Assembly (NCBI RefSeq): GCF_002153655.1
Contig: NZ_JOPJ01000003.1
Span: 42,834-106,833, forward strand
Origin: Acetobacter okinawensis
GTDB taxonomy: Bacteria; Pseudomonadota; Alphaproteobacteria; Acetobacterales; Acetobacteraceae
Length of the DNA: 64,000 nucleotides
Direction: 5' to 3'
Made by a program: the position numbers and the translations under genes. Below the pieces are notes generated by a model. The model did no database searches and was not told the origin of the DNA. It worked only from the letters and a program-made list of their open reading frames with translations. Positions 40,139 to 62,855 of the stretch are shown piece by piece. Each line of letters starts with the position of its first letter. The first letter of the stretch is position 1.

Positions 40139-40150
40139 GCAAACTCCTGT

Positions 40151-45480: not shown

Positions 45481-45503
45481 ATAACAACAAGGAGGCAAAG
45501 CGC

Positions 45504-46112: not shown

Positions 46113-47458
46113 CCCGCTTTGCAAGTGCTCAGAGCATTGCGCATGACATCCGCAGTGGCAAACGCAGCGCTGCGTCCACCATGCAGGCCGTGCTCAACAC
46201 CATAACCCAGCATGACAGCGCCATTCATAGCGTAACGCATCTGTTTGCCCAGCAGGCCATGCAGCAGGCCCACGCGGTCGATGCCATGGTTGCGCGTAAG
46301 GAGCCGCTCCCTCCGCTGGCCGGTGTGCCCTTCGGGGTCAAGGACCTGTTTGATATTCAGGGCCATGTGACCACCGCAGGCTCCATTGTGCTGCGTAACA
46401 CCCCCCCTGCGGCACAGGATGCAGCCCTTGTCGCCCGGTTGCGCACAGCCGGGGCCATTCCCGTAGCCACGCTGAACATGGATGAATTTGCCTACGGTTT
46501 TGCCACGGATAATGCCCATTACGGCATAACCCGCAACCCGCATGATACGCAGCGCATGGCCGGTGGCTCCTCCGGCGGGTCTGCTGCCGCTGTGGCCGCA
46601 GGCTTTTTGCCCTTTACACTGGGGACAGACACCAACGGCTCCATCCGTGTACCCGCATCCCTTTGCGGGGTATGGGGGCTCAAACCCACACTTGGCCGCC
46701 TGCCGCGCGCAGGGGCCTACCCTTTTTCCGCCAGTCTGGACGTGGTGGGCCATTTTACCGGCACGCTGGAAGACCTGCGGAATATTTTTTACATCATGGC
46801 AGATACCCCTGCCGAGCCCGAACCGCAGGACCTGCGCGTCGCCTGTCTGGGCGGCTGGTTTGCCCAGAACCTGAGCCCCGCACTGGCAGCCGCCATAAGC
46901 CGGGTTTGCGCACACCTTGGGCTTACGGGCACCACCGAGCTGCCACAAACACCCACAGCGCGGGCCGCCTCCTTTGTCATCACCGCTTCCGAAGGGGGGA
47001 CACTGCACCTGCCCCGCCTGCGTGCTGCAGCAGAGGATTACGACCCTGCAACCCGTGACCGGCTGCTGGCTGGTGCCATGCTCCCCGCCAGCACCTATGT
47101 GCAGGCACAGCGCTTCCGCCGCTGGTTCCGTGAGCAGGTGCATGCTGCGTTTGAGCAGGTGGATGTGCTGATTGCCCCATCCGTCATGTGTGAGGCCCCT
47201 CTGCTGGATAACCCGACCATCATGGTTGGGGGCAAGCCCGCCTCCGCCCGTGCCAATCTGGGCCTGTACACCCAGCCACTCAGCCTGCCCGGCCTGCCCG
47301 TGCTGTGCCTGCCCCTGAGCAACACGGGCACACTGCCCCTTGGGTTACAACTGGTTGCCGCCCCCGGGCGTGAGGCAGCCCTGTTCAGCCTTGCACGCAA
47401 ACTGGAGCAGGCAGGCCTTGCCGGGCGCTACCCACACAACACGCAGCAGGCCGCCTGA
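46109..47458 (+). CDS. hpxY: AtzE-family amidohydrolase HpxY
   Basis: Amidase-signature hydrolase. The Ser-cisSer-Lys triad is K78 (GVPFGVKDLF), S154 (GGSSGGSAAAVAAG) and S178 (GTDTNGSIRVPAS). The 449-residue product is related to AtzE and to the GatA fold. In Klebsiella purine clusters this gene (hpxY) is assigned to oxalurate breakdown by gene association; the exact reaction is not firmly shown. The ATG at 46109 overlaps hpxX. Biuret- or glutamyl-amide-like substrates remain alternatives. Confidence 0.88.
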   Translation: MTRFASAQSIAHDIRSGKRSAASTMQAVLNTITQHDSAIHSVTHLFAQQAMQQAHAVDAMVARKEPLPPLAGVPFGVKDLFDIQGHVTTAGSIVLRNTPPAAQDAALVARLRTAGAIPVATLNMDEFAYGFATDNAHYGITRNPHDTQRMAGGSSGGSAAAVAAGFLPFTLGTDTNGSIRVPASLCGVWGLKPTLGRLPRAGAYPFSASLDVVGHFTGTLEDLRNIFYIMADTPAEPEPQDLRVACLGGWFAQNLSPALAAAISRVCAHLGLTGTTELPQTPTARAASFVITASEGGTLHLPRLRAAAEDYDPATRDRLLAGAMLPASTYVQAQRFRRWFREQVHAAFEQVDVLIAPSVMCEAPLLDNPTIMVGGKPASARANLGLYTQPLSLPGLPVLCLPLSNTGTLPLGLQLVAAPGREAALFSLARKLEQAGLAGRYPHNTQQAA

Positions 47459-47556: not shown

Positions 47557-49431
47557 ATGCACAGGTTTCTGCTTTTCTTGGGGTGCGGGCTGGCCGCTCT
47601 TGCGGTCAGCCATGCCCATGCAGGCACGTTACCCGACACCATTGGACGCGGGGCTTGCGCAGTCCACAAACAGACGGATGTCGCTGCCACCATGCGTGAT
47701 GGTGTTGTCCTGCGCGCAGATGTGTACACGCCTGTAACAAAGGACAAAGTCCCTGTTCTTCTCATGCGCACGCAGTATGGCAAGGCTGGCGCACAGACGG
47801 ACCCGTCGCGCTTCCACTCCCCCGACTGGTTTGCATCCCACTGCTATATTGTAGCGGTGCAGGACATTCGCGGTCAGGGAAAATCCGATGGCGTGTTCTA
47901 CGAATATCGCAATGACCGTGATGATGGGTATGACACCGTGGAATGGGCCGCACGCCTGCCCGGCTCCACCGGCAAGGTTGGCATGTATGGGTCCTCCTAT
48001 GTGGGTGCGACCCAGTGGCTGGCCGCCACCGCCACACCTCCATCACTTGCCACCATTGTTCCCTCCAACACCGGCTCGGATTACGGCGATGGCTGGACTT
48101 ACGAGGACGGCGCCTTCCGTCTGGCGTTTATTGAACCGTGGATGATGGAGGATATTGCCTCCTCCGCAGCAGAAAACCGGGGGGACAAAAAACTGGCGGC
48201 AGAACTGGCGGCACAGGGCCACAATGCGGCAGCACTTATGCGCCAGCGCCCCTATGCCACCTTTACGCCCTTTACGGTGGACGGCGAAAATGTTGCCCCG
48301 TATTTTTACGATGCCGTCAAACATTCCACATCTGATGCATACTGGAAGGCGTTCGACATCAAATCCCGCTATGCCAAGGTGACCGTGCCCGTACTGGCGT
48401 TTGATGGATGGTATGATTCCTTTTTGAGCGGCGCGCTGGAAAACTTTAACGGCATGCAAGCCCAAGGTGGCTCGGCGGCTGCACGCGCCAACCAGCGCAT
48501 TGTCATCGGGCCGTGGGACCACATTGGCTGGGGCCGCCCGGATTCCAGTGTCAGCCCACGGCTCAAGGCCATTGGCCCCGTGGCCAACAGCCCGGTGAAC
48601 GAACTGATGCTCCTGTGGTTTGACCATGTTTTAAAAGGCATGGACAACGGTGTGCAGACCGGCCCGCGCGTGGACTACTTTACCATGGGCGAGAACCGCT
48701 GGCACACAGCCTCCTCCTGGCCCATTGCCGGAACACAGTACCAGAAGTGGTATCTGGGCAGTGGTCGCAGCGCATCCTCGGTTATGGGCGATGGTAGCCT
48801 GACACCTGAGCATCAGGACAAACACAGCACAACAAAGACCGACACCTTTGTGTATGACCCACACAACCCCGTACCCAGCGTAGGTGGACATTCCTGCTGC
48901 GAGTGGAGCTTTGGCCCGCAGGGACAATACGACCAGTCACAAGTTGAGCAACGGCCGGACATACTGGTCTATACCAGCAAACCGCTGGATGCCCCTTTGG
49001 CCGTAACCGGCCCGATTACGGTTGACCTGTTTGCCACCTCCACCGCAACAGATACGGACTTTACCGCCAAACTGGTGGATGTCGCCCCCGATGGCACGGC
49101 CCTTAACCTGAACAATGGTATTCAGGTCGCACGTTTTCGCAATTCACTCTCCACCCCGGAGTTGATCACCCCCGGCGCAGTGTACGAATACCGGATAAAA
49201 GTCTGGCCAACCAGCAACCTGTTTTTAAAAGGTCACAGCATACGACTGGAAATTTCCTCCAGTGATTATCCGCAGTTTGCACCCAACCCCAATACCGGGG
49301 AGGTGTTTGGCCAGTCCGACCGCATGCTTGTCGCCACACAAACCATTCTGCATGACAGCAAACACCCCTCCGCCCTTGTTCTGCCCGTTATCCCTGTAAC
49401 GCAAGGGGGGGATCACCCGCCTGCGTTGTAA
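47557..49431 (+). CDS. Secreted CocE/NonD-family hydrolase
   Basis: Alpha/beta hydrolase of the X-Pro dipeptidyl-peptidase S15/cocaine-esterase group. A cleavable signal peptide is visible (FLLFLGCGLAALAVSHAHAG). The nucleophile serine lies in KVGMYGSSYVGATQWLAA, with QDIRGQGKSDG before it, GPWDHIGWG (likely His region) and a C-terminal jelly-roll domain (VTGPITVDLFATSTATDTDFTAKLVDV). The natural substrate is unknown; relatives cleave esters, amides or acyl-peptides. It follows hpxY by 98 bp on the same strand and its 3' end overlaps xdhC by 44 nt on the opposite strand. Confidence 0.85.
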   Translation: MHRFLLFLGCGLAALAVSHAHAGTLPDTIGRGACAVHKQTDVAATMRDGVVLRADVYTPVTKDKVPVLLMRTQYGKAGAQTDPSRFHSPDWFASHCYIVAVQDIRGQGKSDGVFYEYRNDRDDGYDTVEWAARLPGSTGKVGMYGSSYVGATQWLAATATPPSLATIVPSNTGSDYGDGWTYEDGAFRLAFIEPWMMEDIASSAAENRGDKKLAAELAAQGHNAAALMRQRPYATFTPFTVDGENVAPYFYDAVKHSTSDAYWKAFDIKSRYAKVTVPVLAFDGWYDSFLSGALENFNGMQAQGGSAAARANQRIVIGPWDHIGWGRPDSSVSPRLKAIGPVANSPVNELMLLWFDHVLKGMDNGVQTGPRVDYFTMGENRWHTASSWPIAGTQYQKWYLGSGRSASSVMGDGSLTPEHQDKHSTTKTDTFVYDPHNPVPSVGGHSCCEWSFGPQGQYDQSQVEQRPDILVYTSKPLDAPLAVTGPITVDLFATSTATDTDFTAKLVDVAPDGTALNLNNGIQVARFRNSLSTPELITPGAVYEYRIKVWPTSNLFLKGHSIRLEISSSDYPQFAPNPNTGEVFGQSDRMLVATQTILHDSKHPSALVLPVIPVTQGGDHPPAL

Positions 49432-50263
49432 AGACCTGCTGCCGGGGTGAGGGATGGAGCAGTTTTTCCACCACCTCGGCCGCCACAAGGGCGGCAATAA
49501 CCTCGGGGCGTTTGTCCCGCACGCCCCGGTCCCCTATGGGGCAGACCAGTTTTGACAGATGCTCTGGCAAAACTCCAACTTCTGCGAGCGATTTTTCAAA
49601 CCGGAGGCGCTTGGCGCGCGAGCCGATCAGCCCCACATAGGCCAGACCGGGCTGGAGGAGTGCCGCCTCCACAATCAGTGCGTCCAGCGTGTGCGATGGG
49701 GTGAGCACCAACACCCCCGCCCCCGGTTGTGCCGTAGCCAGCACCCCGGCCCAGTCGGATGTTACGCGCACATCCACCCCGCTGGGCACGGTACCAAATT
49801 CATGCGCACGCGGGTCCACCCAGACCAGTCGCAGCGGCAGGGGGGTAAGTGCGTGGGCAAGTGCGCGCCCCACATGCCCGGCCCCAAACAGGAACAGGCT
49901 GACCCGCTGGTTGCTCTGGCGGGCAAGCCGGTCCTCCAGCTCCGTGCATAACTCCGGGGTCAGCACCTCCAGCCTGACAGCCACACGGCCACCACAGCAC
50001 TGGCTGACATTTGCCCCCCCCAGCACAATCTGGTGTTCGCGCACCACCTCGCCCGAGCAGAGCATGGCATGGGCGTGCTGCTCACACGCCAGTTCCAGCG
50101 CACCGCCCCCCACAGTGCCTGCCACAACAGCCTGCCCTACCAGCATAAAGGCCCCTTCCTCCCGCGGGGTGGAGCCGCGCGTCAGGGTTACACGCGCCAC
50201 AACAAGGGGCTGCGGGGCCAGCCGCCACTGGCGGAGCAGGGCGTCAGGCGCGAGCCTGTGCAT
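49388..50263 (-). CDS. xdhC: Xanthine dehydrogenase accessory protein XdhC
   Basis: Chaperone that binds, sulfurates and inserts the molybdenum cofactor into xanthine dehydrogenase. The product has GSTPREEGAFMLV, GTVGGGALELACEQ, a Rossmann motif LFLFGAGHVGRALAHAL, and YVGLIGSRAKRLRF with CPIGDRG near the C-terminus. I start at the ATG at 50263 (MHRLAPDALL), 20 nt inside the xdhB 3' end; a longer open frame exists. Length is 291 residues. The last codons overlap the convergent CocE-type gene. Confidence 0.93.
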   Translation of the reverse strand: MHRLAPDALLRQWRLAPQPLVVARVTLTRGSTPREEGAFMLVGQAVVAGTVGGGALELACEQHAHAMLCSGEVVREHQIVLGGANVSQCCGGRVAVRLEVLTPELCTELEDRLARQSNQRVSLFLFGAGHVGRALAHALTPLPLRLVWVDPRAHEFGTVPSGVDVRVTSDWAGVLATAQPGAGVLVLTPSHTLDALIVEAALLQPGLAYVGLIGSRAKRLRFEKSLAEVGVLPEHLSKLVCPIGDRGVRDKRPEVIAALVAAEVVEKLLHPSPRQQVFTTQAGDPPLALQG

Positions 50264-52634
50264 CTGCCCCCGCACGGCGCTGGCGCAGGCGTTCGGCCAC
50301 GCGCAAAATCTGCTCAGGCGTTGCCGGAGCATTCAGCCCCGGGCAGGTGCGGTAGTCATCCACACTGGCCAGCGCATCGGAAATGGCATGCAACACGGCC
50401 ACACCATGCACAAAAGGCGGCTCCCCCACCGCCTTGGAGCGGAAGATGGTGTCCTCCCTGTTGGGGACGTTTTCCATAAGGCGCACATTAAAAATACGGG
50501 GCCGATCAGAGCAGGCAGGAATTTTGTAGGTACTGGGGGCATGTGTGCGCAACTGGCCTGCCGTATCCCAGAACAGTTCCTCCATGGTCAGCCAGCCAGC
50601 GCCCTGCACAAAGCCGCCCTCTATCTGCCCGATGTCAATATCAGGGTTAAGCGAGAGACCGGCATCATGCAGAATATCCACCCGCTCCATGCGGTTCTCG
50701 CCTGTCAGCAGGTCCACCGCCACTTCTGCGCAGGCGGCACCATAAGCGAAGTAGTAAAAAGGGCGCCCCCGCCCGGTTGCCGCATCCCACGAGATTTTAG
50801 GCGTTTTGTAAAACCCCGTGGAGGAGAGGGAGATACGCGCCATATACGCCGCATTGACCAGCGTTGCGAACGGCACCAGTGCTGCCCCCACCACAACGCC
50901 CTGGGCGGTAAACTGTATCTGTTCGGGCGGGGTCTGCCAGTGGCTGGCGGCAAATGTTACCAGCCGGTCCTTGATTGTGCGCACAGCCGCCAGCACGGCC
51001 ATGCCGTTCAGGTCCGCACCGCTGGACGCCGCGGTTGCTGAGGTATTGGGCACTTTGCCAGTGGTGGTGGCGGTAATGCGCACACGCTCCTGCGCAAGCC
51101 CGAACTCGCGCATGGCAATCTGCACCATTTTGGTGTGCAGGCCCTGCCCCATTTCCGTGCCGCCATGGTTCACCTGCACGGAGCCATCGGTATAGACATG
51201 CACCAGTGCCCCCGCCTGATTGAAATGCGTGGCGGTAAAGGAAATACCAAACTTAACCGGCGTAATGGCAATACCGCGCCGCATATGCGGGCTTGTCTTG
51301 TTAAAAGCCCTTATCTGCTCACGGCGCTTACGATAATCACAATCTATGGCAAGCTGGCTCAGCACCTCCGTGGTAATGGAATCTTCCACGGTCATATGGT
51401 ACGGGGTCAGGTTCCGCTCGGTTGTGCCATAGGCATTGCGTAGCCTGACATCCAGCGGGTCCAGCCCGGTGGCAAAGGCAATTTCCTCCATAATCCGCTC
51501 GGCTGCGGCAACCCCCTGCGGGCCGCCAAACCCACGAAAAGCCGTGTTGGACTGTGTGTTGGTCCGCAATGGCAGGGAACGCAGGCGTACATCGGGGTAG
51601 TAATAGGCGTTATCGGCATGGAACAGGGCGCGGTCCGTAACCGGGCCGGACAGGTCGGCCGACCAGCCACAACGGGCGGCCAGCTCCATATCCACCCCCA
51701 GCACATGGCCCTGTGCGTCAAACCCCACATCATAATCGATCACAAAGTCATGGCGTTTGCCTGTGAGCATCATGTCGTCATCACGGTCGAGGCGGAGTTT
51801 GGCGGGGCGGCCCGTGCGGGCGGCGGCAAGGGCTGCAAGGCAGGCCACAATGTTGGCCTGTGTTTCCTTCCCGCCAAAACCACCGCCCATGCGCCGCACT
51901 TCCACGGTCACAAGGTTGTTGGGGCAGCCCAGAACATGGGCCACCATATGCTGGGTTTCCGTCGGGTGCTGGGTGGAGGAACACACGCGCATCTCCCCAT
52001 CCTCCCCCGGGCAGGCGAGTGCGGCCTGCCCTTCCAGATAAAAATGTTCCTGACCGCCAACCACAAGCTGGCCCGCAAGCCTGTGTGGGGCATGGGCCAG
52101 AGCCTGCGGGGCGTCTCCGCGTGTCATTTCCAGCGCGCGGCAGACCAGTGCGCCGCCCTGGGCACGTGCCTGCTCTATGCTCAGGGCGGCGGGCTTGTCC
52201 TCGTACGTGACCTGCGCAAGGGCTGCTGCGTGGCGGGCGGCATGGCGGGTCTGGGCCACCACGGCAAACAGGGGCTGGCCATAAAAAAACACATGATCTT
52301 CGGCCAGAAGTGGCTCGTCACCCGCCCCCACGGGGCTGATCTGGTTATGCGCCACGTCCTGTGCGCGCAGCACGCACAACACGTCAGGGTGGGCCTCGAC
52401 CGCACTCAGGTCCATGCTCAGGATACGCGCGTGAGCACTCCGGCTCAGGCCCAGAGCAACGTGCACGGCGTTGGGGGGGAGTGGCACGTCATCCACATAC
52501 CGCGCCTCCCCCGCTACGTGCAGATGCGCACTTTCGTGCCGCAAGGAGGAAGATGCCCCCCCAGCAACCGGCACGGAACCGTGGGGCAGCGTTGCATTGC
52601 TCTGAGCCTGCACCGTGTTCTGTACCTCAACCAT
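50244..52634 (-). CDS. xdhB: Xanthine dehydrogenase, molybdopterin-binding subunit
   Basis: Large catalytic subunit where xanthine or hypoxanthine is hydroxylated to urate at molybdenum. The 796-residue product shows RYVDDVPLPPNAVHVALGLS at the N-terminus, VEVRRMGGGFGGKETQA, NTAFRGFGGPQGV, VNHGGTEMGQGLHTKMVQ, and the C-terminal GEPPFVHG containing the catalytic Glu. This layout matches bacterial XdhB. It overlaps xdhA by 8 nt and xdhC by 20 nt. Confidence 0.96.
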   Translation of the reverse strand: MVEVQNTVQAQSNATLPHGSVPVAGGASSSLRHESAHLHVAGEARYVDDVPLPPNAVHVALGLSRSAHARILSMDLSAVEAHPDVLCVLRAQDVAHNQISPVGAGDEPLLAEDHVFFYGQPLFAVVAQTRHAARHAAALAQVTYEDKPAALSIEQARAQGGALVCRALEMTRGDAPQALAHAPHRLAGQLVVGGQEHFYLEGQAALACPGEDGEMRVCSSTQHPTETQHMVAHVLGCPNNLVTVEVRRMGGGFGGKETQANIVACLAALAAARTGRPAKLRLDRDDDMMLTGKRHDFVIDYDVGFDAQGHVLGVDMELAARCGWSADLSGPVTDRALFHADNAYYYPDVRLRSLPLRTNTQSNTAFRGFGGPQGVAAAERIMEEIAFATGLDPLDVRLRNAYGTTERNLTPYHMTVEDSITTEVLSQLAIDCDYRKRREQIRAFNKTSPHMRRGIAITPVKFGISFTATHFNQAGALVHVYTDGSVQVNHGGTEMGQGLHTKMVQIAMREFGLAQERVRITATTTGKVPNTSATAASSGADLNGMAVLAAVRTIKDRLVTFAASHWQTPPEQIQFTAQGVVVGAALVPFATLVNAAYMARISLSSTGFYKTPKISWDAATGRGRPFYYFAYGAACAEVAVDLLTGENRMERVDILHDAGLSLNPDIDIGQIEGGFVQGAGWLTMEELFWDTAGQLRTHAPSTYKIPACSDRPRIFNVRLMENVPNREDTIFRSKAVGEPPFVHGVAVLHAISDALASVDDYRTCPGLNAPATPEQILRVAERLRQRRAGADAQARA

Positions 52635-54144
52635 CCGCCAGTTCCTGCCAGTTCTGTAATGTTGGAGCCCCTGTGGTCATGCCCTCTGTGCTGCTGGCTG
52701 GCGCAGGTTCAAACAGGCGGGCCAGCAGATTGGCTGCAACAGTGGAGCGGTACCATGCACTGGCGCGCATGTCTGACAGGGGGGTAAAATCCTCCTGTAT
52801 GGCAGCCTGAGCGGCGCGCAGGGTCGCCTGTGTTCTGGGCTGGCCAAGCATGGCGGCCTCTGCCTTTTTGGCCCGGCAGGGTATGCCCGCCATCCCCCCA
52901 TAGGCCAGACGGGCCTGCTGTATGGTGCCGTCCGTGGCCATAACCAGCACAAACGCCCCCAGCACAGCCGAGATATCCTGATCAAAGCGCTTGGAAACCT
53001 TATACACCGCGCACACGCTCCCCTGCGCCAGTGGCGGCACCAGAACCCCTTCTATGAACTCGCCGGGCTGAATATCCTGCTTGCCGTAGTCCAGAAAAAA
53101 CGCCTCCAGCGGCACAACGCGCCGTACGCCTGCGCACCGCAGGTGCAACTGCGCCCCCGCCGCCATAAAAATGGGCGGGCCATCCCCAATGGGGGAGGCA
53201 TTGCCAATATTACCACATACCGTGGCGGCATTGCGCACCTGTGTTGAGCCGATGCGCCGCAGCGTCTGCTCTGCCGCAGGCAGGTGTGCAAGCAGGTGGG
53301 GCATGGCCTCGGTATAGGTGACCGCAGCCCCTATCCACAATGCGCCATCGGGGCGGGTGTGGATGTTGTGCAGGTCCTGTGCAGACCGCACGGCAATAAT
53401 ATGGGGGAGTTGGCGCAACCGTTTGGTCACCCACAACCCCACATCCGTGCCACCAGCAACCAGCACGGCCGCCGGGTCCTGCGCATAGGCCGTAGCCAGT
53501 GCGTCCACACTGGCGGGCAGCGTTATGCGCCCTTTGGGGCTGCGCAGTTCCACCGTTTTACCATCCTGCAAGGCGCGCAGGCGTGCGGTCAGTTCCTCTT
53601 GGCGCGCACTTATGGGTTCACCATTGCGGGCACAGTGGGCGGCGGCTTTTTTCATGGCGCGCACAATGGGTGCATAGCCCGTGCAGCGGCACAGATTGCC
53701 TGCAAGGGCCTCGTTTATCACGCGCTCGCCATCCAGTGTGCCTTCCAGCTCCGCCAGATCCGCGCGCGTGGACAATGCGACCATGGACATGACAAACCCC
53801 GGTGTGCAGAACCCACATTGCGACCCGTGCTCGTCCACCATGGCCTGCTGCACGGGGTGCAGCGTACCGCTGGCCGTGCGCAGGTCCTCCACAGTCAGCA
53901 GTTGCGCGCCATCGAGCATCCATACCATATGGATGCAGGCATTGACCGCACGCCACACCAGCCTGTCCTGCTCCAGCCGCCCGACAAGCACGGTGCAGGC
54001 ACCGCAGTCTCCCTCGTTACAGCCTTCCTTCGTCCCTGTGCGGCTCTGCTGCTCGCGGAGCCAGTCCAGCAGGGTCATCTCCGGCGGCAGGTCAGAGAGA
54101 TGGTGGAGTGTATCCCCCACATAAAAGCGGATGTGCTGGCGCAT
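52627..54144 (-). CDS. xdhA: Xanthine dehydrogenase, FeS/FAD subunit
   Basis: Electron-transfer subunit. The first 2Fe-2S site is C42, C47, C50 and C70 (KEGCNEGDCGACTV); the second is C110, C113, C152 and C154 (SQCGFCTPGFV, LCRCTGY). A FAD domain follows from about residue 195, with VAGGTDVGLWVTKRLR and ICGNIG-like VCGNIGNASPIGD. The fusion of both parts in one 505-residue chain is the bacterial XdhA form. The ATG at 54144 follows GGGAG. It is preceded by the NCS2 permease gene in the same operon. Confidence 0.96.
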   Translation of the reverse strand: MRQHIRFYVGDTLHHLSDLPPEMTLLDWLREQQSRTGTKEGCNEGDCGACTVLVGRLEQDRLVWRAVNACIHMVWMLDGAQLLTVEDLRTASGTLHPVQQAMVDEHGSQCGFCTPGFVMSMVALSTRADLAELEGTLDGERVINEALAGNLCRCTGYAPIVRAMKKAAAHCARNGEPISARQEELTARLRALQDGKTVELRSPKGRITLPASVDALATAYAQDPAAVLVAGGTDVGLWVTKRLRQLPHIIAVRSAQDLHNIHTRPDGALWIGAAVTYTEAMPHLLAHLPAAEQTLRRIGSTQVRNAATVCGNIGNASPIGDGPPIFMAAGAQLHLRCAGVRRVVPLEAFFLDYGKQDIQPGEFIEGVLVPPLAQGSVCAVYKVSKRFDQDISAVLGAFVLVMATDGTIQQARLAYGGMAGIPCRAKKAEAAMLGQPRTQATLRAAQAAIQEDFTPLSDMRASAWYRSTVAANLLARLFEPAPASSTEGMTTGAPTLQNWQELADG

Positions 54145-54208: not shown

Positions 54209-55669
54209 TTAGGGCGTAGGGGTATGCCCCGCAGGATTACCCCCCACCTGAGGTTTGTCCTGCATGCCCACTACGTTCCACACCGGCGTCTCCAGTATGA
54301 CGGTATCCTGCGCGACAGACTGCTCCGTGGAACACAGATTGCCAAAATTGAACACCAGATGCAGCACAATGGCGGACATGGCCCCCAGTGTAATGCCGCT
54401 CCCAAAAATAACCTGCATCCATGCGGGAAAATGGTCGGCAATATGCGGCTGGGCTGTAGCCAGCATGCTCAGCCCGATGCTGGTGCCCACAATAACCGTG
54501 TTGTTCAGGTTATCAAAATCCACTTTGACAAGGGTTTGAATACCCACCACGGCCACAGCAGCAAACATGGCCAGCGCAGCCCCGCCCAGTACGGGCAATG
54601 GCACGCTGGCAATAATGGCCGCCAGCTTGGGCAGGCAGCCAAGCCCCATCATGATCACGGCAGCCGCAACCACAACCCAGCGGCTGGTTACACGGGTCAG
54701 CCGCACAAGGCCCACATTCTCGGCAATGCAGGTATAGGGGAAGGAGTTGAGCACGCCCCCGATCATGGTGGCCAGACCATCGGCCCGGATCGCACGCGTA
54801 ATGTCCTCCGAGGTAATGTCCTTTTTCACAATCGAGCCGGTTGCAAACACATCGCCCGTGGTCTCAAGCATGGTAATGATCATGACCACCAGCATGGACA
54901 GCACAGGCACCACATGGAATGTGGGCATGCCAAAGTAAAAAGGCTGGGCCACGGTTACCCACGGGGCGGACAGCACACCACTAAAGCTGGCATCCCCCAG
55001 AAACCACGCGGTCAATGTCCCCGCCACCAGCCCGAACAGCACGGCAATGCTGGCGACAAACCCCTTGAACATACGCTGAATGAGCAGAATGGACGCAAGC
55101 GTACCCAGACCATACGCCACATTGCGCATGTTGACCGGGTTCTGCATGACCCCCGTGCCCTGCCCGTTGACAATGTCGTTCGCGGCCACCGGCAGCAACG
55201 CCAGCCCGATAACCAGAATGACCGAGCCTGTGACCACGGGAGGGAAGAATTTGACCAGCCTGCCAAACCACGGGGCGGCCAAAAAGGTAAAAATACCCCC
55301 AGCAATGACAGCCCCAAAAATCTGGGGCAGACCCTGCACGCCCCCGCCCGCCGCCACGCCAATGGCGATCATGGGGGTTACGGCCACAAAGGTGACCCCC
55401 TGCAACAACGGCAGCTTGACCCCGATATACCGCCCCAGCCCGGCTGACTGGATAAAAGAGGCAATACCGCAGGTAAACAGGTCAGCCTCGATCAGGTGTT
55501 CAAGGGCGGCGCGGGGCAGACCCATGGCACCTGCCAGCAGAACAGGCACAATCACCGCCGCAGCGTAGAATGTGAGCACATGTTGCAGGCCATAGAACCC
55601 CAGCTTCCAGACCGGAAGCATCTGGTCCACGGGATGAACGGCATTTTGCGTTTTGCTGGCAGGCTGCAT
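54209..55669 (-). CDS. NCS2-family purine (uracil-xanthine/urate) permease
   Basis: Inner-membrane nucleobase:cation symporter. The 486-residue product has about 12-14 hydrophobic segments and NCS2 motifs: LPVWKLGFYGLQHVLTFYAA at the N-terminus, GASFIQSAGLGRYIG-type GIASFIQSAGLGRYIG, PLLQGVTFVAVTPMIAIG and ETTGDVFATGSIVKKDIT in TM8. Within its operon xanthine or urate is the likely cargo. The ATG at 55669 has GGGGGAG 9 nt upstream; it starts 4 nt after the uraH stop. Confidence 0.92.
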   Translation of the reverse strand: MQPASKTQNAVHPVDQMLPVWKLGFYGLQHVLTFYAAAVIVPVLLAGAMGLPRAALEHLIEADLFTCGIASFIQSAGLGRYIGVKLPLLQGVTFVAVTPMIAIGVAAGGGVQGLPQIFGAVIAGGIFTFLAAPWFGRLVKFFPPVVTGSVILVIGLALLPVAANDIVNGQGTGVMQNPVNMRNVAYGLGTLASILLIQRMFKGFVASIAVLFGLVAGTLTAWFLGDASFSGVLSAPWVTVAQPFYFGMPTFHVVPVLSMLVVMIITMLETTGDVFATGSIVKKDITSEDITRAIRADGLATMIGGVLNSFPYTCIAENVGLVRLTRVTSRWVVVAAAVIMMGLGCLPKLAAIIASVPLPVLGGAALAMFAAVAVVGIQTLVKVDFDNLNNTVIVGTSIGLSMLATAQPHIADHFPAWMQVIFGSGITLGAMSAIVLHLVFNFGNLCSTEQSVAQDTVILETPVWNVVGMQDKPQVGGNPAGHTPTP

Positions 55670-55673
55670 GGAC

Positions 55674-56006
55674 TTAGCTCCCCCTGTAAGTCGAATAGGC
55701 GTATGGGGCGACCAGCAGGGGCACATGGGCATGCCCGCTGCCGCCAAGGCCAAAATGAATGGGTACACAGTCAAGGAACGGCGGGTCAGCCAGCGGTGTG
55801 CCCTGCTGGCGGAAATAGGCCGCCACCTCAAACTCAAGGCAGTATGCCCCAGCAGCAAGTTCCAGCGACCGCAGTGCAGGGCAACGGCCATCCGCGTCGG
55901 TCACACCTGTAAACAGTATGCCCTGCGCACCGCGCAGGCGCAGGGTTACGCCCTGTGCCGGACGCCCCGAAACCGTATTGAGAACATGGGTTGAAAGAGA
56001 GCTCAT
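55674..56006 (-). CDS. uraH: 5-Hydroxyisourate hydrolase (transthyretin-like protein)
   Basis: Hydrolyses 5-hydroxyisourate to OHCU. The 110-residue product opens with the family's LSTHVLNTVSGRPAQGV (catalytic His) and ends with the signature YSTYRGS. VPIHFGLGGSGHAHVPLLVAPY is also typical. Its presence implies that the cell makes 5-hydroxyisourate from urate. The start overlaps the uraD stop by 4 nt. Confidence 0.97.
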   Translation of the reverse strand: MSSLSTHVLNTVSGRPAQGVTLRLRGAQGILFTGVTDADGRCPALRSLELAAGAYCLEFEVAAYFRQQGTPLADPPFLDCVPIHFGLGGSGHAHVPLLVAPYAYSTYRGS

Positions 56007-56521
56007 GCCACCACCTTATCGTGCAGACGTAACGCGGCTATGGCGTCAATCTGGTGCAGGGCCTCGGCCAGCTCGGCCTGGGGCGTGCTGGCAAGCCGCC
56101 GCTCCATGGCCTGAGCTATAACCTCTTTGGCATGCCCGCCAACCTTGCGCACGCAAATAACAAACGGCATGCCGAACTTTTGCGTGTACGCATCATTCAA
56201 AGCCCGAAAACGCGCGTATTCCTCTGGCGTTAACCGGTCCAGCCCTGCCCCGCCCTGCTCCTGCGCGGAGGCCGCTGTCAGCCCCGCGTCCACCCCAAGG
56301 CGATGCCCCAGCTCGGGGTGGGCACGCACAAGGGCGTACTGCTCGGCCTCACCCGCGCCATGCATGGCGGCTGAAAATGCCTGACACATAGCCCCAAGAT
56401 CAGCAAAGGGGCGGCTGAGGGCAGCTTTTTGCGCAACCCAGGGGGAGTGCTCGTACACCCCGCCAAATGCCTCCACAAAGGCGGCCTGTGGCATGGTGTT
56501 GACGTCTGCCAGTGTAATCAT
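56003..56521 (-). CDS. uraD: 2-Oxo-4-hydroxy-4-carboxy-5-ureidoimidazoline decarboxylase
   Basis: Converts OHCU to (S)-allantoin. The 172-residue product begins MITLADVNTMPQAAFVEAFG and holds GGVYEHSPWVAQKA with the catalytic His, RAHPELGHRLG, LNDAYTQKFGMPFVICVRKV and a C-terminal basic tail. The ATG at 56521 overlaps the puuE stop (ATGA). With uraH it gives stereospecific allantoin from urate oxidation. Confidence 0.96.
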   Translation of the reverse strand: MITLADVNTMPQAAFVEAFGGVYEHSPWVAQKAALSRPFADLGAMCQAFSAAMHGAGEAEQYALVRAHPELGHRLGVDAGLTAASAQEQGGAGLDRLTPEEYARFRALNDAYTQKFGMPFVICVRKVGGHAKEVIAQAMERRLASTPQAELAEALHQIDAIAALRLHDKVVA

Positions 56522-57414
56522 GCGGGGTGGACCTTCTGCCAGTGGCGGGCAATATCGGCCCGGGTGGCAACCCACACATCCGTATGGGCGGCCACGTGCT
56601 CCAAAAACCGGGCAACAGCCAGCGCGCGCGCGGGTTTGCCAGCAAGGCGGCAGTGCAGACCGACAGACATCATACGCCCCCCTTCACGGTAGAGCATGTC
56701 AAACGTGTCCCGCAGGTAATGGAAGAACTGCTCACCTTCGGTAAAGCCGTTCAGGGCGGCAAACTTCATGTCATTCACGTCCAGCGTATAGGGTACCACA
56801 AGCTGGGGTTTACCGTATTGCCGGTCGTAATACGGCAGGTCATCGGCGTAGGAATCTGCATCGTATAAAAAACAGCCTTCCTCCACCACCAGCCGGGCGG
56901 TGTTGGGGCTGGTGCGCCCCTGATACCAGCCAAGGGGGGCGGCCCCCGTAACCTGCGTGTGCAGGGCTATGGCCTCGCGCATGTGGGCGCGCTCCACGTC
57001 CTCGGGCACATTCTGGTAATCTATCCAGCGCAGACCGTGGGTTGCAATCTCCCACCCGCTGGCCTGCATGGCGGCAACCACCTGCGGGTTGCGCGCCAGC
57101 GCCATAGCTACGCCAAAAACCGTAACTGGCAGGCCCGCACCCGCAAACAGGCGGTGCAGCCGCCAAAAGCCCGCACGGCTGCCGTATTCATACAGGCTTT
57201 CCATCTGCATGCAGCGCGCGCCTACAACGGAGCTTGTACCCACCATTTCGGACAAAAAGGCCTCGGACCCGCGATCCTTGTGCAAAATGCAGTTTTCTGC
57301 ACCTTCCTCGTAATTAATCACGAACTGTACGGCTATGCGTGCGCCACCGGGCCACTGTGCATCGGGCGGGGCAGCGCCATAACCGATCATGTCACGCGGG
57401 TATGTCTGAGTCAT
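56518..57414 (-). CDS. puuE: Allantoinase PuuE (polysaccharide-deacetylase fold)
   Basis: Metal-independent allantoinase that opens allantoin to allantoate. The 298-residue product carries MIGYGAAPPDAQWPGGARIA, VNYEEGAEN-like VINYEEGAENCILHKD, EYGSRAGFWRL, EIATHGLRWIDYQ and YDADSYADDLPYY, which mark the PuuE subgroup rather than peptidoglycan deacetylases. The gap to the upstream flavoprotein gene is 28 nt, and it overlaps uraD by 4 nt. Confidence 0.94.
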   Translation of the reverse strand: MTQTYPRDMIGYGAAPPDAQWPGGARIAVQFVINYEEGAENCILHKDRGSEAFLSEMVGTSSVVGARCMQMESLYEYGSRAGFWRLHRLFAGAGLPVTVFGVAMALARNPQVVAAMQASGWEIATHGLRWIDYQNVPEDVERAHMREAIALHTQVTGAAPLGWYQGRTSPNTARLVVEEGCFLYDADSYADDLPYYDRQYGKPQLVVPYTLDVNDMKFAALNGFTEGEQFFHYLRDTFDMLYREGGRMMSVGLHCRLAGKPARALAVARFLEHVAAHTDVWVATRADIARHWQKVHPA

Positions 57415-57442
57415 TTTTATCCCGTTTTACGCTTGTTTTTTC

Positions 57443-58861
57443 TCAGGTCTGCTCTGGCGGATCAAAGCTGGTCAATTCATCCACATTATAGTCCAGCAGG
57501 CTTTGCAGGTGCAGTGCGCCGTCCTGCACAAACAGGCTGCGCCCGATGCAGGTGGTCAGTTTTTCCACCCCAAAGCGCATGCCGCTAATGGTTGCACCAG
57601 CAAGGCCCATGCTGGGCATGGCGGAAAATGTAAAGTTGTAGATGCACTGCATCATCGGGGCGAGCGGGTCGTTTGCATCGAGTGGTTGGAACTGGAACGC
57701 GTTGCTCAGGTACGGGTGGCTGCCCAGCAGAGCGCTCTGCTCATCGGCCGGGGCTTCAAACCGGTCTTTCCACAAGGCAATGCGGCTGGCCATACGTGCA
57801 AGCTCGGGCCGCTTGGTCAGGTCAATAATAAAGCCTGTACCGATAATGAGGAAGTCAAACGTCATCTCACCCTGCGGGGTGGTGACGACCACAGCGCCGT
57901 TTTCCTCCCGCGCGGCAGTCCATGGCGTGCCGGTGTGGTAAGCAAAATTGGTGTGCTTGCGGCACCGCCAGAACGTGTCCTGCGGGGGCGGCTGGTTCAG
58001 GTCATAAATCTTGTACATGAACCGCCAGCGCAGCAGGTCCGGCAGGTCGGCCAGATAGCTCAGAAAACCTGCGTTTTCCATCCAGCGGTACGGGTTGATG
58101 GTGGGGATCTGCTTACGGCGCAGGCACAGGTCCACGCTGGCGGCTCCGTGCTCCAGTGCGGTGGCGGCATTGTCAAAAGCCGAGGCCCCGGCACCCAGAA
58201 CACCAATGCGCTTGCCGCGCAGGGACTCAAAATCAATCTGCTCGCAGGTATGGGCATACCGGCTTTTGGGCACCCCCTGGCTGATGAAGTCGGGCACATG
58301 CCACGCGCCACCCCCTTCTATACCCGTTGCCAGCACAACGCGGCGCGCCCACACCACCTGCTCGGCACCCCCGGCACAGTCAAAGGTCAGCCTGAGCAGA
58401 CCGTCTTCCCATGCAATGTCGCTCAGCCGGTGTTCGTTGCGGACCGGCAGGTCCAGCACCGTGCGCAGCCAGACCAGATACTCCTGCCAGTCATGGCGGG
58501 AAATCTTGTCCAGATCACGCCATGCCTGCTCGCCATATTTTGCCTCAAACCAGGACTGGGGGGTCAGGCTGGGAATACCAAGGTCAGGCCCGACCACATG
58601 CTTGGGTGTGCGCAGGGTAATCATACGCGCAAAGGTCACCCACGGCCCTTCCTCCCCCTGTGGGGCCAGATCGAACACACAGGTGTTGGTCACCCCGCGC
58701 CGCCGCAGCCCGAAACACGTGGCAAGCCCGCCCTGCCCGCCACCAATAATGGCAACGTCAAGCACATCCTTGCCGTTGTGTTGGTGGGGAATACACCAGT
58801 TGCCCGAGGCAAACTGGATTTTGGCAAGGTCGTCCCGGACGCGTCTGTTAAGCTGTTCCAT
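57443..58861 (-). CDS. FMO-type flavoprotein monooxygenase; candidate urate-oxidising enzyme
   Basis: The 472-residue protein has two dinucleotide folds: FAD-binding GGGQGG at residues 40-45 (DVAIIGGGQGG) and NAD(P)-binding GVLGAGASAFD at 220-230. It also has LATGIEGG near 178 and the GTGF motif in FLIIGTGFIIDL. This is the class B (FMO/BVMO-like) layout, unlike the pHBH-type urate hydroxylase HpxO or cofactor-free uricase. It is the first gene of the operon with puuE, uraD, uraH, permease and xdhABC, divergent from lysR. No other urate oxidase is in the island, so a role in urate hydroxylation is my inference; oxidation of another purine intermediate is the alternative. Confidence 0.8.
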   Translation of the reverse strand: MEQLNRRVRDDLAKIQFASGNWCIPHQHNGKDVLDVAIIGGGQGGLATCFGLRRRGVTNTCVFDLAPQGEEGPWVTFARMITLRTPKHVVGPDLGIPSLTPQSWFEAKYGEQAWRDLDKISRHDWQEYLVWLRTVLDLPVRNEHRLSDIAWEDGLLRLTFDCAGGAEQVVWARRVVLATGIEGGGAWHVPDFISQGVPKSRYAHTCEQIDFESLRGKRIGVLGAGASAFDNAATALEHGAASVDLCLRRKQIPTINPYRWMENAGFLSYLADLPDLLRWRFMYKIYDLNQPPPQDTFWRCRKHTNFAYHTGTPWTAAREENGAVVVTTPQGEMTFDFLIIGTGFIIDLTKRPELARMASRIALWKDRFEAPADEQSALLGSHPYLSNAFQFQPLDANDPLAPMMQCIYNFTFSAMPSMGLAGATISGMRFGVEKLTTCIGRSLFVQDGALHLQSLLDYNVDELTSFDPPEQT

Positions 58862-59012: not shown

Positions 59013-59915
59013 ATGCCCGTTTTTTCCCGCTTCTTGCGGTACTTTATGGCCGTTGCCCAGCATGGCTCGATCAGAAAAGCCTCTGACGAGCTGCATATTG
59101 CCGCCTCCGCCATAGACCGGCAGGTGTTGCAGGGCGAAAAAATTCTGGGCACCCAACTGTTCGAGCGCCTGCCATCGGGCCTGCGCCTGACCACGGCGGG
59201 GGAACTGCTGCTGACCTCCTGCCGCCGCTGGTCGCGGGACCTTAACGCCCTGCAAACCCAGCTTGATAACCTCAAGGGCCTGCGGCAGGGCTCCACGGAT
59301 ATTCTGATCCCCGACGCCCTGACCAAAGGCTTTTTGCCCACCCTGCTGGGCAGGCTGCGCCAGACGCACCCGGGCATTATGGTCAGCGTGCATGTGCGCA
59401 AAAGCCATGACATGGGGGAACTGCTGGTCAAGGGGCATGCGGATTTTGCGCTCATGTTCAACCCCGGCCACATGCGTGAGCTGAGTGTGCGCACCCACAA
59501 GGAAATTCCGCTCGGCTTCGTCTGCCTACCCTCCCACGAAATTGCGGACATGAAGGAGGCACGCTTCAGCCTTGCGGCCGAATACCCCATGATCATCCCC
59601 ACCCCTCCGCTGGCCCTGTGGCGGCCCATTGGTGTGCTGGAGGCGGAAACAGGGGTCAAGGTCGCAACCGTGGCCAAGGCTGACAATATCCAGATGATCA
59701 AGTCCATGGTGCTCGAAGGGGCAGGCGTTGGTATTCTGAGTTATCTTGATGCCTATGACGAGGTGCAGAAGGGCCAACTGGCCTTTACCCCCATTGCCAA
59801 CCGCAAGCTCCCCCCCCTGACACTGGCCCTGTGCGTGGACCGCTCCCGCCAGCTGTCCACTGCGGCACGGTTCATTATTACCGAGATTGAAAACTTTTTT
59901 GCCGACCAGTTCTAA
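59013..59915 (+). CDS. LysR-family transcriptional regulator
   Basis: Probable regulator of the purine operon. The 300-residue product has an N-terminal winged helix (RFLRYFMAVAQHGSIRKASDE, then IDRQVLQGEKILGTQLFERL) and a periplasmic-binding-like effector domain from about residue 90 (GSTDILIPDALTKGFLPTLLG). It is divergent from the flavoprotein gene across 151 bp that hold a dyad. The effector is not known; a purine or ureide intermediate is likely by context. The guanine deaminase gene follows 19 nt after its stop. Confidence 0.9.
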   Translation: MPVFSRFLRYFMAVAQHGSIRKASDELHIAASAIDRQVLQGEKILGTQLFERLPSGLRLTTAGELLLTSCRRWSRDLNALQTQLDNLKGLRQGSTDILIPDALTKGFLPTLLGRLRQTHPGIMVSVHVRKSHDMGELLVKGHADFALMFNPGHMRELSVRTHKEIPLGFVCLPSHEIADMKEARFSLAAEYPMIIPTPPLALWRPIGVLEAETGVKVATVAKADNIQMIKSMVLEGAGVGILSYLDAYDEVQKGQLAFTPIANRKLPPLTLALCVDRSRQLSTAARFIITEIENFFADQF

Positions 59916-59934
59916 CGGCCCGAAAGCCCCCGCC

Positions 59935-61266
59935 ATGCCCCACACCCCCGCCCGCCACGCCATACGAGGCAGCTACGTAACCTTCCGCGCGGACCCGTTT
60001 GCCGCCCCCGCAGCCGATGCGCTGGTGCTGGAGGAGGATGGACTGATCATTATGGAGCACGGGCGCATTACCCATTGCGGCCCCTATGCTCTTGTGCGCG
60101 CACATCTGGGGGAGAACACCCCCCTGACCCACTACCCCGACTGCCTGATCAGTGCGGGTTTTATAGACGCGCATGTGCACTACCCCCAGATTTCGGCCAT
60201 TGCATCATGGGGGGAGCAGCTTCTGCCTTGGCTGGAGCAGTATATTTTCCCCACCGAGGCACAGTTCGCCAGCATGGACGTGGCCCGGCAGACCGCGCGG
60301 CTGTTCCTGTCCGAGCTGCTGCGCAACGGCACCACAACGGCTGCGGTGTACTGCACGGTGCACCCCCAGTCGGTCGATGCGTTTTTTGAGGAATCCGCAC
60401 GCCTTGGCACCCGCATGATCGCGGGCAAGGTGCTGATGGACCGCAACTGCCCCCCCAACCTACAGGACACAGCCCAAAGCGGGTACGACCAGTCTGCCGC
60501 ACTCATTGCGCGCTGGCATGGCACGGGCCGCCAGCTTTATGCCGTAACCCCGCGCTTTGCCATAACCAGCACCCCCGAACAGCTTGAACTGGCAGGCGAC
60601 CTGCTACGCCGCACGCCGGGGCTGTACATGCAGACCCATCTGGCCGAAAATCTGGACGAAATAGCCGCCGTGCGCAGCCTGTTCCCCCACCACAGCTCCT
60701 ATCTGGATGTGTATGCAAAAGCAGGGCTGGATGGGCCACGCGCCATATTCGGCCATGCCATCCACATGAGCGAGCATGACTTTGCCCATTGCCACCACTC
60801 CGGCTGCACACTTGTCCATTGCCCCACATCCAACCTGTTCCTCGGCAGTGGGGCCTTCCGCCTGTTTGATGCACTCAGGCCTGACCGCCCCGTGCATGTG
60901 GCATTAGGGACGGATATTGGGGCGGGTACATCACTCTCCCTGCTGGCCACAATGGGGGAGGCCTACAAGGTGTCTCTCATGGCGGGGGATACGCGTCTTT
61001 CTGCCGCACAAGCACTCTGGCTGGCAACGGCGGGGGCAGCACACGCCCTGCACCTGCATGACCGGATCGGCCATATTGCTCCGGGCATGGAGGCTGATCT
61101 GTGCGTCATGGACCCCCAAGCCACACCGCTTATGGCCCAGCGTAGCGCCCGCGCCACCACATTAGCCGAACGCCTGTTTACCCTGATGGTCCTGGGCGAT
61201 GACCGGGCCATCCGCGCAACATGGGTCAATGGCAAAGTCGTGCATACCCGTGCAGAGGCGGCCTAA
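59935..61266 (+). CDS. guaD: Guanine deaminase
   Basis: Zinc amidohydrolase turning guanine into xanthine. The 443-residue product shows FIDAHVHYPQISAIAS, TTTAAVYCTVHPQSVDAFF, TPRFAITSTPEQLELAG, MQTHLAENLDEI, IFGHAIHMSE and GTDIGAGTSLSLLATMGEAY, which together mark guanine deaminases. I start at the ATG at 59935 (MPHTPARHAIRGSY); the TTG upstream lies inside lysR. The ribosome site is weak, so coupling to lysR translation is possible. Its stop overlaps the convergent hpxW stop by 4 nt. Confidence 0.94.
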   Translation: MPHTPARHAIRGSYVTFRADPFAAPAADALVLEEDGLIIMEHGRITHCGPYALVRAHLGENTPLTHYPDCLISAGFIDAHVHYPQISAIASWGEQLLPWLEQYIFPTEAQFASMDVARQTARLFLSELLRNGTTTAAVYCTVHPQSVDAFFEESARLGTRMIAGKVLMDRNCPPNLQDTAQSGYDQSAALIARWHGTGRQLYAVTPRFAITSTPEQLELAGDLLRRTPGLYMQTHLAENLDEIAAVRSLFPHHSSYLDVYAKAGLDGPRAIFGHAIHMSEHDFAHCHHSGCTLVHCPTSNLFLGSGAFRLFDALRPDRPVHVALGTDIGAGTSLSLLATMGEAYKVSLMAGDTRLSAAQALWLATAGAAHALHLHDRIGHIAPGMEADLCVMDPQATPLMAQRSARATTLAERLFTLMVLGDDRAIRATWVNGKVVHTRAEAA

Positions 61267-62855
61267 AACGCCGCCACGCATCCATCGCTCCGCGGGTCTG
61301 CCGCCCCCTCAAACAGGCCATTGGCATGGCGCACCACAGCGCCTGCGTGGCCCATCATGCTGGTAAAGGGGGCAACGCGCTCCACCTCATGCCCGGCCTG
61401 TTCCAACCGGGCCAGCACGCCTGCATCAAACCGGCTTTCGAGCTTGAGCGAATGGCTGTTGCTGCCCCATGTGCGCCCCAGCAGCCAGCGCGGCGCGGTG
61501 ACGGCCTGCTGTATGGGCACACCAAACATGGCATAGCGTGTGAACACGGCAGCCTGTGTCTGCGGCTGGCCCTCGCCACCCATGGTGCCGTACACCATGA
61601 CCCGACCATCATCAAACCGGGCCAGAGCGGGGTTGAGGGTATGGAACGGTTTGCGGCCGGGAACAAAGGCGTTCCACGCCCCTTCCTCCAGCTGGAAGGA
61701 CGCCCCACGGTTCTGCCACAGCAGCCCTGTTTGCGGCAGAAACACACCGGACCCGAATTCAAAATACAGGCTCTGGATCATGCTGACAGCAACACCCGAG
61801 CGATCCACAGCCCCCATCCATGTTGTATCCCCCATCTGCGATGGAGCAGGCCATGGCATGGCGCGGTGGGGGTCAATGCTGGCGGCCATGGCACTCAGGC
61901 GGGCCTCATCATCAAGGAAACCCTGCGCGCTCTCAGTCATCCAGCGCGGGTCACCCACATGCGCGTTGCGGAAGAGGAAGGCATGTTTGGTCGCCTCCAC
62001 CAGCGCATGCACATAGGCAAAGCCGTCCACCTCCTGCACTTTGAGTTTTTCAAACAGTTTGAGAATGGCAAGGGAGGCCACACCCTGTGTTGGCGGGGGG
62101 GCGTTATACACTTGTGCCCCCGCCACGCGCGCATGCAGGGCGGCGGGAGTGGCCACCGCGTGGTGGGCAAAGTCCTCCGCACGTAATGGGCTGCCCGCAT
62201 GGGTCAGGTCATCAAGCAGCCTGCGCCCGACATCCCCGGTGTAAAAGCTCTCCAGCCCATTGTGGAGCAGGCTTTGCAAGGTCTCGGCCAATGCTGGGTT
62301 CTTGCGGATATCCCCCGCACGCGGCAGACACCCATCGGGCGCATATGCCGCGGCAAAATGGGGGTTACCCATGAGTTCGTCCTGTTTTTCAGCCAGCAGG
62401 GTGGCCTCGCTCAGGCTCAGGGCATAACCGTTTTTGGCATACCAGATGGCATCTTCAAGCACCGCATCCAGCGGTAGAGCAGGCTGGAGCGCCGCACTGC
62501 GCGCCAGTGCCGCCTGCCAGCCCGAGACGGTACCAGCCATGGTGTTGGCAGCCCATCCCCCGCGCCATGGCACGCTGGTATGCCCTGCCGCCGTGTAATC
62601 GGCAGCGCTGGCGTGCAGGGCAGCGGCCCCGCAGGCCTCCAGCACCTCCGTGCGCCCATCGGGGTAGGAGATCAGCCAGAACGCATCCCCCCCCATGCCG
62701 GTCATATGGGGGTAAACCGCGCACAATGTTGCGGCCATGGCGGTGACCGCCTCCAGCGCCGTGCCACCTTTTTTGAGGATCTCCAGACCACTCTGGCTGG
62801 CCAGATGGTGGGGGGATGTGACCATCCCACGGGTTGACTGAAAACTATGCAGCAT
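61263..62855 (-). CDS. hpxW: Oxamate amidohydrolase-like protein HpxW (gamma-glutamyltransferase fold)
   Basis: Ntn-hydrolase of the GGT family. The predicted autocleavage and nucleophile Thr is T344 in MGDTTWMGAVDRSG, followed by YGTMGGEGQPQTQAAVF in the small subunit. The N-terminal half holds SQSGLEILKKGGTALEAVTAMAA and MTGMGGDAFWLISY. There is no signal peptide, which fits a cytosolic oxamate hydrolase rather than periplasmic GGT. Klebsiella HpxW hydrolyses oxamate to oxalate and ammonia. I start at the ATG at 62855 (530 residues, family size); the open frame runs on upstream without similarity. Confidence 0.87.
   Translation of the reverse strand: MLHSFQSTRGMVTSPHHLASQSGLEILKKGGTALEAVTAMAATLCAVYPHMTGMGGDAFWLISYPDGRTEVLEACGAAALHASAADYTAAGHTSVPWRGGWAANTMAGTVSGWQAALARSAALQPALPLDAVLEDAIWYAKNGYALSLSEATLLAEKQDELMGNPHFAAAYAPDGCLPRAGDIRKNPALAETLQSLLHNGLESFYTGDVGRRLLDDLTHAGSPLRAEDFAHHAVATPAALHARVAGAQVYNAPPPTQGVASLAILKLFEKLKVQEVDGFAYVHALVEATKHAFLFRNAHVGDPRWMTESAQGFLDDEARLSAMAASIDPHRAMPWPAPSQMGDTTWMGAVDRSGVAVSMIQSLYFEFGSGVFLPQTGLLWQNRGASFQLEEGAWNAFVPGRKPFHTLNPALARFDDGRVMVYGTMGGEGQPQTQAAVFTRYAMFGVPIQQAVTAPRWLLGRTWGSNSHSLKLESRFDAGVLARLEQAGHEVERVAPFTSMMGHAGAVVRHANGLFEGAADPRSDGCVAAF

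Follow-up and report, generated by a model that had tools for sequence, protein, structure and literature searches.

The window analysed here, a stretch of 64,000 nucleotides from Acetobacter okinawensis, contains a flavoprotein gene (57443..58861, (-) strand) whose sequence makes it very probable that the product is a member of the HpyO family and the likely urate hydroxylase of the purine-catabolic island in which it lies. The gene heads the cluster puuE-uraD-uraH-permease-xdhABC and is separated from puuE by a gap of 28 nucleotides (57415..57442, (-)) between the hpyO stop (57443) and the puuE ATG (57414). The assignment builds on the membership of the protein in the HpyO family by sequence, the conserved motifs for binding of flavin adenine dinucleotide (FAD) and NAD(P), the lack of a match to three other urate oxidases, and the gene linkage. 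In the initial annotation, the flavoprotein was considered to be possibly a non-orthologous, mechanistically different urate hydroxylase. The role in urate hydroxylation stands, in view of the genome-wide absence of matches to the other enzymes, the co-occurrence patterns, the neighbourhoods, a fusion to UraD and the homology to HpyO; the novelty does not, given that Michiel et al. had reported HpyO, an FAD- and NAD(P)H-dependent urate hydroxylase of Xanthomonas that is non-homologous to HpxO, in 2012 (as cited in a passage of PMC4562309).

The flavoprotein and its affinity to HpyO

The gene is a single uninterrupted reading frame that begins with ATG and comprises 472 codons. Four Pfam models score above their cut-offs for the product (Pyr_redox_2, 40.6 bits; Pyr_redox_3, 38.1; Lys_Orn_oxgnase, 36.6; NAD_binding_9, 27.7), so that both an FAD and an NAD(P) fold are present, and the combination of PF07992, PF13738 and PF13454 with the invariant glycine motifs and the predicted fold indicates that the two binding domains are contained in one chain. 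These matches, together with the coordinates and the NCBIfam assignments of the neighbouring genes, bear out the earlier description of a flavoprotein with both folds located 28 nucleotides before puuE and close to uraH, uraD and the xdh genes. The motif GGGQGG (residues 40-45; 58727..58744, (-)) is presumably the FAD-binding one, and GAGASA (residues 223-228; 58178..58195, (-)) is taken to bind NAD(P); G40, G42 and G45 of the former and G223, G225, A226 and S227 of the latter are invariant across 70 sequences. Alignment comparison reveals two further stretches, NPYRWME (residues 256-262; 58076..58096, (-)) and NQPP (residues 289-292; 57986..57997, (-)), in which M261 and E262, and N289 and Q290, respectively, are common to the Xanthomonas HpyO clade and not to the relatives that are encoded away from urate genes. 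All NCBIfam models score far below their cut-offs for this protein (the best, ArsO, reaches 35 bits where 425 are required), and a sequence search of the PDB gave no match at E<=0.001. In the fold searches, the fold was found to be also that of amine N-hydroxylases; HpyO is not named among the 50 fold matches listed per search, which is compatible with a solved HpyO structure.

The homologue search retrieved 6973 proteins at E<=0.001 among the 7998 scored. Among the 120 matches listed, the named ones are mostly from Acetobacteraceae, and at least 7 are denoted FAD-dependent urate hydroxylase by their sources. Many of the named relatives from this search and the two described below are still labelled "NAD(P)/FAD-dependent oxidoreductase" or "CzcO". 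The latter name fits, because KEGG K22879 (FAD-dependent urate hydroxylase) and COG2072 (CzcO flavoprotein) are assigned together to one Caballeronia protein in a table entry of PMC13210998; as a consequence of such labels, pathway tools may wrongly call the pathway broken. The nearest named loci are those of Acetobacter, with a flavoprotein 99% identical in an A. okinawensis locus and 76% identical in the locus of the A. pasteurianus type strain (L019), which has the same cluster. When the flavoprotein of genome G613 served as the query, homologues from Xanthomonas, Pseudoxanthomonas, Sphingobium and Paenibacillus were recovered, and with P0161 (from Xanthomonas) as the query, the matches included P0243, also from Xanthomonas, which carries the NCBI-source name "FAD-dependent urate hydroxylase HpyO". 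The flavoprotein from the window is 45% identical to P0243 end to end, over 471 positions, and 42% identical to P0161 over 466 positions. The full-length homologue named HpyO (P0243) rules out a new enzyme class; by its sequence, the flavoprotein is of a known kind, HpyO, not a new one.

One of the homologues, P0103 (653 amino acids), starts with a UraD domain (200 bits against a cut-off of 96) and continues with a flavoprotein 54% identical to the one from the window, a natural fusion which suggests that step one of urate breakdown is coupled to step three. Another, P0116 (705 amino acids), apparently contains two flavoprotein halves in tandem, which could reflect fusion, duplication or misassembly.

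In a quick tree of 92 rows, three groups are apparent: A, which includes Xanthomonas HpyO, Sphingobium, Priestia and the genomes G613 and G023; B, which includes the window, other Acetobacteraceae and P0103; and C, the relatives that are not linked to urate genes. The remaining rows (D) lie further out. When A and B were constrained to group together, the likelihood increased by 6.84 and the grouping was not rejected (p of the approximately unbiased test, 0.607), for groups that were named after the tree had been seen. A careful tree was built for 56 of the 92 rows; the other 36 comprise 10 rows of B and C (including L080 and L197) and 26 of D. In this tree, A is recovered with support of 100/100 within a 35-row A+B clade (89/93) that includes no D rows and none of 10 of the 11 C rows, with the eleventh, Rhizobium L196, joining the A side. 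Eight residues (T85, T205, M261, E262, N289, Q290, L420 and S426) are conserved in 90% or more of the rows in A (11) and in B (24) and in no more than 30% of those in C (16) and in D (37), a count that leans towards the grouping because L080, L191 and L197 were omitted from B, and L196 from C. Residues that separate the urate group provide a means of annotating it.

The L196 locus, on plasmid pRACO34Ac of Rhizobium sp. ACO-34A, encodes a flavoprotein 50% identical to that of the window in the vicinity of a gene annotated as 8-oxoguanine deaminase and one for a PuuE-like deacetylase, and is possibly a separate urate route.

Urate oxidases and gene linkage across genomes

The assembly that contains the window (2.72 Mb, 147 contigs, stated to be 100% complete) has no match, across the whole genome, to the cofactor-free uricase (PF01014) or to the membrane domain of PuuD (PF06181), and none to the NCBIfam model urate_HpxO at E<=1e-20, with 26 of the 29 candidates scored and a model cut-off of 500 bits. 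An HpxO hidden among PF01494 proteins was sought as well: there are 10 matches in the genome, of which the 3 full-length ones, judging by the 25 best models for each, are a UbiH/COQ6-type protein, UbiM and a halogenase-like protein, again without a urate_HpxO match. The observation made initially for the island, that it encodes no uricase, HpxO or PuuD, thus extends to the entire genome. The accompanying list of known urate oxidases was correct as to the absence of these three and incomplete in that HpyO was left out, being named only among the proposed checks.

Among 60 genomes of the family Acetobacteraceae, the one with the window (G000) included, 46 have a match to the flavoprotein, 27 encode UraD, 8 PuuD and 5 a uricase; urate_HpxO exceeds 500 bits in none of the 60, with weaker matches in 32. 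A close copy of the flavoprotein (at least 54% identity) is present in 15 of the 60 genomes, all 15 of which encode UraD and none PuuD or uricase. The proposed check on co-occurrence with uraH and uraD in genomes that lack the other oxidases gave the expected pattern in this set and also among the 19 uraD-containing genomes without PuuD or uricase, 16 of which encode a urate-clade protein; thus, for most family genomes of this kind, an HpyO-clade member is available. Conversely, among all uraD-containing genomes, PuuD or uricase is found in 0 of the 16 with a clade member and in 8 of the 11 without one (Fisher p 7e-5), and for the 15 closest copies the respective numbers are 0/15 and 8/12 (p 2e-4), both tests ignoring the kinship among genomes.

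The gene neighbourhoods follow a similar pattern. In all 11 named loci, puuE, uraD and uraH are encoded within about 8 kb. In the 60 genomes, 44 of the 45 other full-length matches were inspected (G026:C408 was left out). Among the loci with at least 54% identity, uraD or uraH is found in the stretch in 10 of 14 (in one case, uraH only), and the other 4 have uraD elsewhere in the genome; among those below 54%, the stretch contains one of these genes in 4 of 30, each time directly beside the flavoprotein gene. At the 26 loci outside the family, which come from 398 phylum-wide genomes, there is neither uraD nor uraH in the stretch (0/26). By these counts, urate linkage marks part of a larger family, with the protein of the window within that part. 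In Acetobacter persici JCM 25330 (L023, a draft), the hpyO and LysR frames appear to be split, due either to sequencing error or to real breakage.

Of the 340 plasmid records with a match, nine were inspected. The order uraD-flavoprotein-uraH is found on plasmids of Niveispirillum, Novosphingobium and Sphingobium, as well as in the genomes G613 and G023, and on plasmid p5 of the Gram-positive Priestia filamentosa (L192, CP136440.1, 98 kb) the genes for the permease, UraD, UraH and the flavoprotein lie in a row. The plasmid stretches of Mesorhizobium, two Rhizobium, Bradyrhizobium and Sinorhizobium contain neither uraD nor uraH. In two of these, Rhizobium etli p42e (L194) and Sinorhizobium meliloti pSymB (L198), related flavoproteins of a sister subfamily are encoded beside ABC transporter genes; the transporter at L194 is of the amino acid type, and genes for peroxidase-related proteins are located nearby at each of the two loci. 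The genome G613 belongs to the same phylum as the window and to a different class, and so is probably a gammaproteobacterium; within its order, searching with the Xanthomonas protein covered two genomes only. Its flavoprotein (L188, C33) is identical to P0121, which is labelled by its source as uncultured Bradyrhizobium, so that the host is uncertain; contamination, mislabelling or transfer could account for this identity.

Predicted reaction and alternative functions

The substrate, the reaction, the flavin-peroxide chemistry and any preference for NADH or NADPH are predicted for this protein as follows. The FAD would be reduced by NAD(P)H occupying the second Rossmann domain; reaction of the reduced flavin with O2 would give a C4a-(hydro)peroxyflavin, which would hydroxylate urate at C5, yielding 5-hydroxyisourate, with water instead of H2O2 as the by-product. 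UraH and UraD would convert 5-hydroxyisourate via 2-oxo-4-hydroxy-4-carboxy-5-ureidoimidazoline (OHCU) to (S)-allantoin, and PuuE would open the ring to give allantoate.

Several observations weigh against the assignment to HpyO. The support for the joint clade is moderate (89/93); two of its members, Mesorhizobium L191 and Rhizobium L196, show no urate linkage, and it includes the four Acetobacteraceae loci with uraD only elsewhere in the genome. In the quick tree only, the Bradyrhizobium-like rows L080 and L197, also without urate linkage, fall into group B. The name of P0243 is given by annotation, the assayed protein being HpyO of X. campestris. Relatives without linkage to urate genes reach up to 48% identity to the flavoprotein, and since the 42-45% seen with the Xanthomonas proteins is no higher than for some of these, identity alone leaves the function undecided. 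Three of the 19 uraD-containing genomes without uricase or PuuD (G006, G033 and G052) have no clade member either, so that the family may possess a further urate oxidase; the HpxO-like matches in G033 and G052 (141 and 119 bits) are far below the cut-off of 500. Finally, in G003, G005 and G016 (L108, L111 and L106, respectively), the flavoprotein gene adjoins uraH in genomes without a uraD match; spontaneous decay of OHCU is conceivable in these organisms, as is the action of a different decarboxylase.

Some of these points could be accommodated if the flavoprotein was a paralogue with another substrate in purine or ureide breakdown, such as a hydroxylase of N-heterocycles or amines, with urate oxidation left to an enzyme still to be discovered. 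Many members of the wider family are indeed encoded away from urate genes (uraD or uraH at 0/26 phylum-wide loci and at only 14 of the 44 family loci besides the window), the fold is common to amine N-hydroxylases, and there are the three uraD-containing genomes without an assigned urate oxidase. However, the position in the tree together with Xanthomonas HpyO and the shared residues, the co-occurrence with uraD in 15 of 15 genomes to the exclusion of uricase and PuuD, the fusion to UraD, and the repeated uraD-flavoprotein-uraH placement in distant lineages render such a paralogue improbable. A fifth type of urate hydroxylase, non-homologous to the described ones, which was the strongest form of the initial proposal, would explain why no NCBIfam model reaches its cut-off and why the PDB yields no sequence match at E<=0.001, but is highly improbable given the end-to-end alignment at 45% identity with the HpyO-named P0243, the tree, and the relatives named FAD-dependent urate hydroxylase in several sources. 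Class B-like flavin-containing monooxygenases are versatile, and a bystander in the operon, such as a flavin reductase or a detoxification enzyme of this class, is thus conceivable in principle; nevertheless, this hardly seems credible for a gene that adjoins uraD or uraH in several alphaproteobacterial genera, in a genome of another class and on a Bacillota plasmid, in a genome that has no other known oxidase to supply 5-hydroxyisourate.

Beyond the assignment to HpyO, a broader evolutionary scenario can be proposed, as a rather doubtful possibility. HpyO might be ancestral and vertically kept in acetic acid bacteria, with Xanthomonas HpyO being a late offshoot that was spread by transfer even to Gram-positive plasmids; the hydroxylation might be physically coupled to UraD, as in P0103, so that the labile 5-hydroxyisourate and OHCU are passed on without release and without H2O2.

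The purine-catabolic island and comparison with known systems

Downstream of the flavoprotein gene and on the same (-) strand, the cluster encodes the allantoinase PuuE (56518..57414; TIGR03212, 522.9 bits), the OHCU decarboxylase UraD (56003..56575; TIGR03164, 176.6 bits), the 5-hydroxyisourate hydrolase UraH (55674..56006; TIGR02962, 102.4 bits), a xanthine/uric acid-type permease of the NCS2 family (54209..55891; TIGR03173, 488.8 bits), the small subunit XdhA (52627..54144; TIGR02963, 607.1 bits) and the molybdopterin-binding subunit XdhB (50244..52634; TIGR02965, 1272.9 bits) of xanthine dehydrogenase, and XdhC (49388..50332; TIGR02964, 255.8 bits). All these matches are over the respective cut-offs; the true starts of uraD and the permease gene probably lie within the open reading frames. 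A divergent LysR-type regulator identified with Pfam (59013..59915, (+)) is followed by guanine deaminase (59887..61266, (+); TIGR02967, 549.3 bits, over cut-off) and a gamma-glutamyltransferase-like protein (61263..62849, (-); TIGR00066, 312.6 bits, below the cut-off of 357.85), possibly an HpxW-type oxamate amidohydrolase. On the other side, there are an 8-oxoguanine deaminase (38765..40162, (-); NF006055, 693.5 bits, over cut-off), predicted to be an additional source of urate, followed by allantoate amidohydrolase (42831..44246, (+); NF006775, 607.4 bits, over cut-off), a class V aminotransferase (44243..45469, (+); best NCBIfam matches far below cut-off), possibly a ureidoglycine-glyoxylate aminotransferase, the oxalurate catabolism protein HpxZ (45381..45908, (+); NF033625, 144.5 bits, cut-off 135) and an AtzE family amidohydrolase (46082..47458, (+); NF006631, 595.7 bits, over cut-off). 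The functions suggested for the aminotransferase and for the gamma-glutamyltransferase-like protein are based on analogy with the Klebsiella hpx genes. Judging by gene content, the degradation of guanine or 8-oxoguanine appears almost fully covered as far as oxalurate-type products; in the part from xanthine to allantoate, the step that lacks a named enzyme is urate oxidation, with the adjoining flavoprotein as the candidate.

In Commensalibacter communis, another acetic acid bacterium, genes for the Enzyme Commission (EC) numbers 1.14.13.113, 3.5.2.17, 4.1.1.97, 3.5.2.5, 3.5.3.9 and 2.6.1.112 were reported in 2023 (PMC10149009); this set is the pathway of the island, FAD-dependent urate hydroxylase included. 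The sections of PMC11936674 on this subject tie the use of uric acid by Acetobacter to Drosophila host fitness and report uric acid about 50% lower with an A. pasteurianus strain that has uric acid degradation genes than with a strain without them, on a high-sugar diet only. The relevant part of PMC7520893 deals with allantoin of the host, not with urate oxidation by bacteria, and is not used as support. A literature search, with most subscription journals outside its coverage, found no assay of an Acetobacter HpyO. With the present analysis, a name is proposed for the step at which Acetobacter oxidises urate; the remaining interest is in the spread of HpyO in acetic acid bacteria, the UraD fusion, the copy on a Gram-positive plasmid and the three uraD-containing genomes without an assigned oxidase.

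Compared with the known systems, the flavoprotein is most similar to HpyO (EC 1.14.13.113), with which it shares 45% full-length identity (P0243), the Pfam domains, membership in one clade, the eight positions that are rare in non-urate relatives, and the uraD/uraH linkage of the clade members. It differs in that the identity is only 42-45%, the Acetobacteraceae group lies outside the 100/100 Xanthomonas-Sphingobium-Priestia clade, and the activity is a predicted one. The HpxO of Klebsiella, which is of the para-hydroxybenzoate hydroxylase type, resembles the flavoprotein in the predicted reaction and cofactors, whereas the flavoprotein has a separate NAD(P) domain and its genome has no urate_HpxO match at E<=1e-20; HpxO presumably belongs to the FAD_binding_3 fold family, unlike the flavoprotein. 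The flavin-dependent N-hydroxylating monooxygenases SidA, PvdA and KtzI share the fold and PF13434 with the flavoprotein but act on amines; no PDB sequence matches it at E<=0.001, and its gene context lends no support to amine N-hydroxylation. Uricase (PF01014) and PuuD (PF06181), neither of which is matched in the genome, have folds unrelated to that of the flavoprotein; they act at the same pathway step and are mutually exclusive with it across the uraD-containing genomes.
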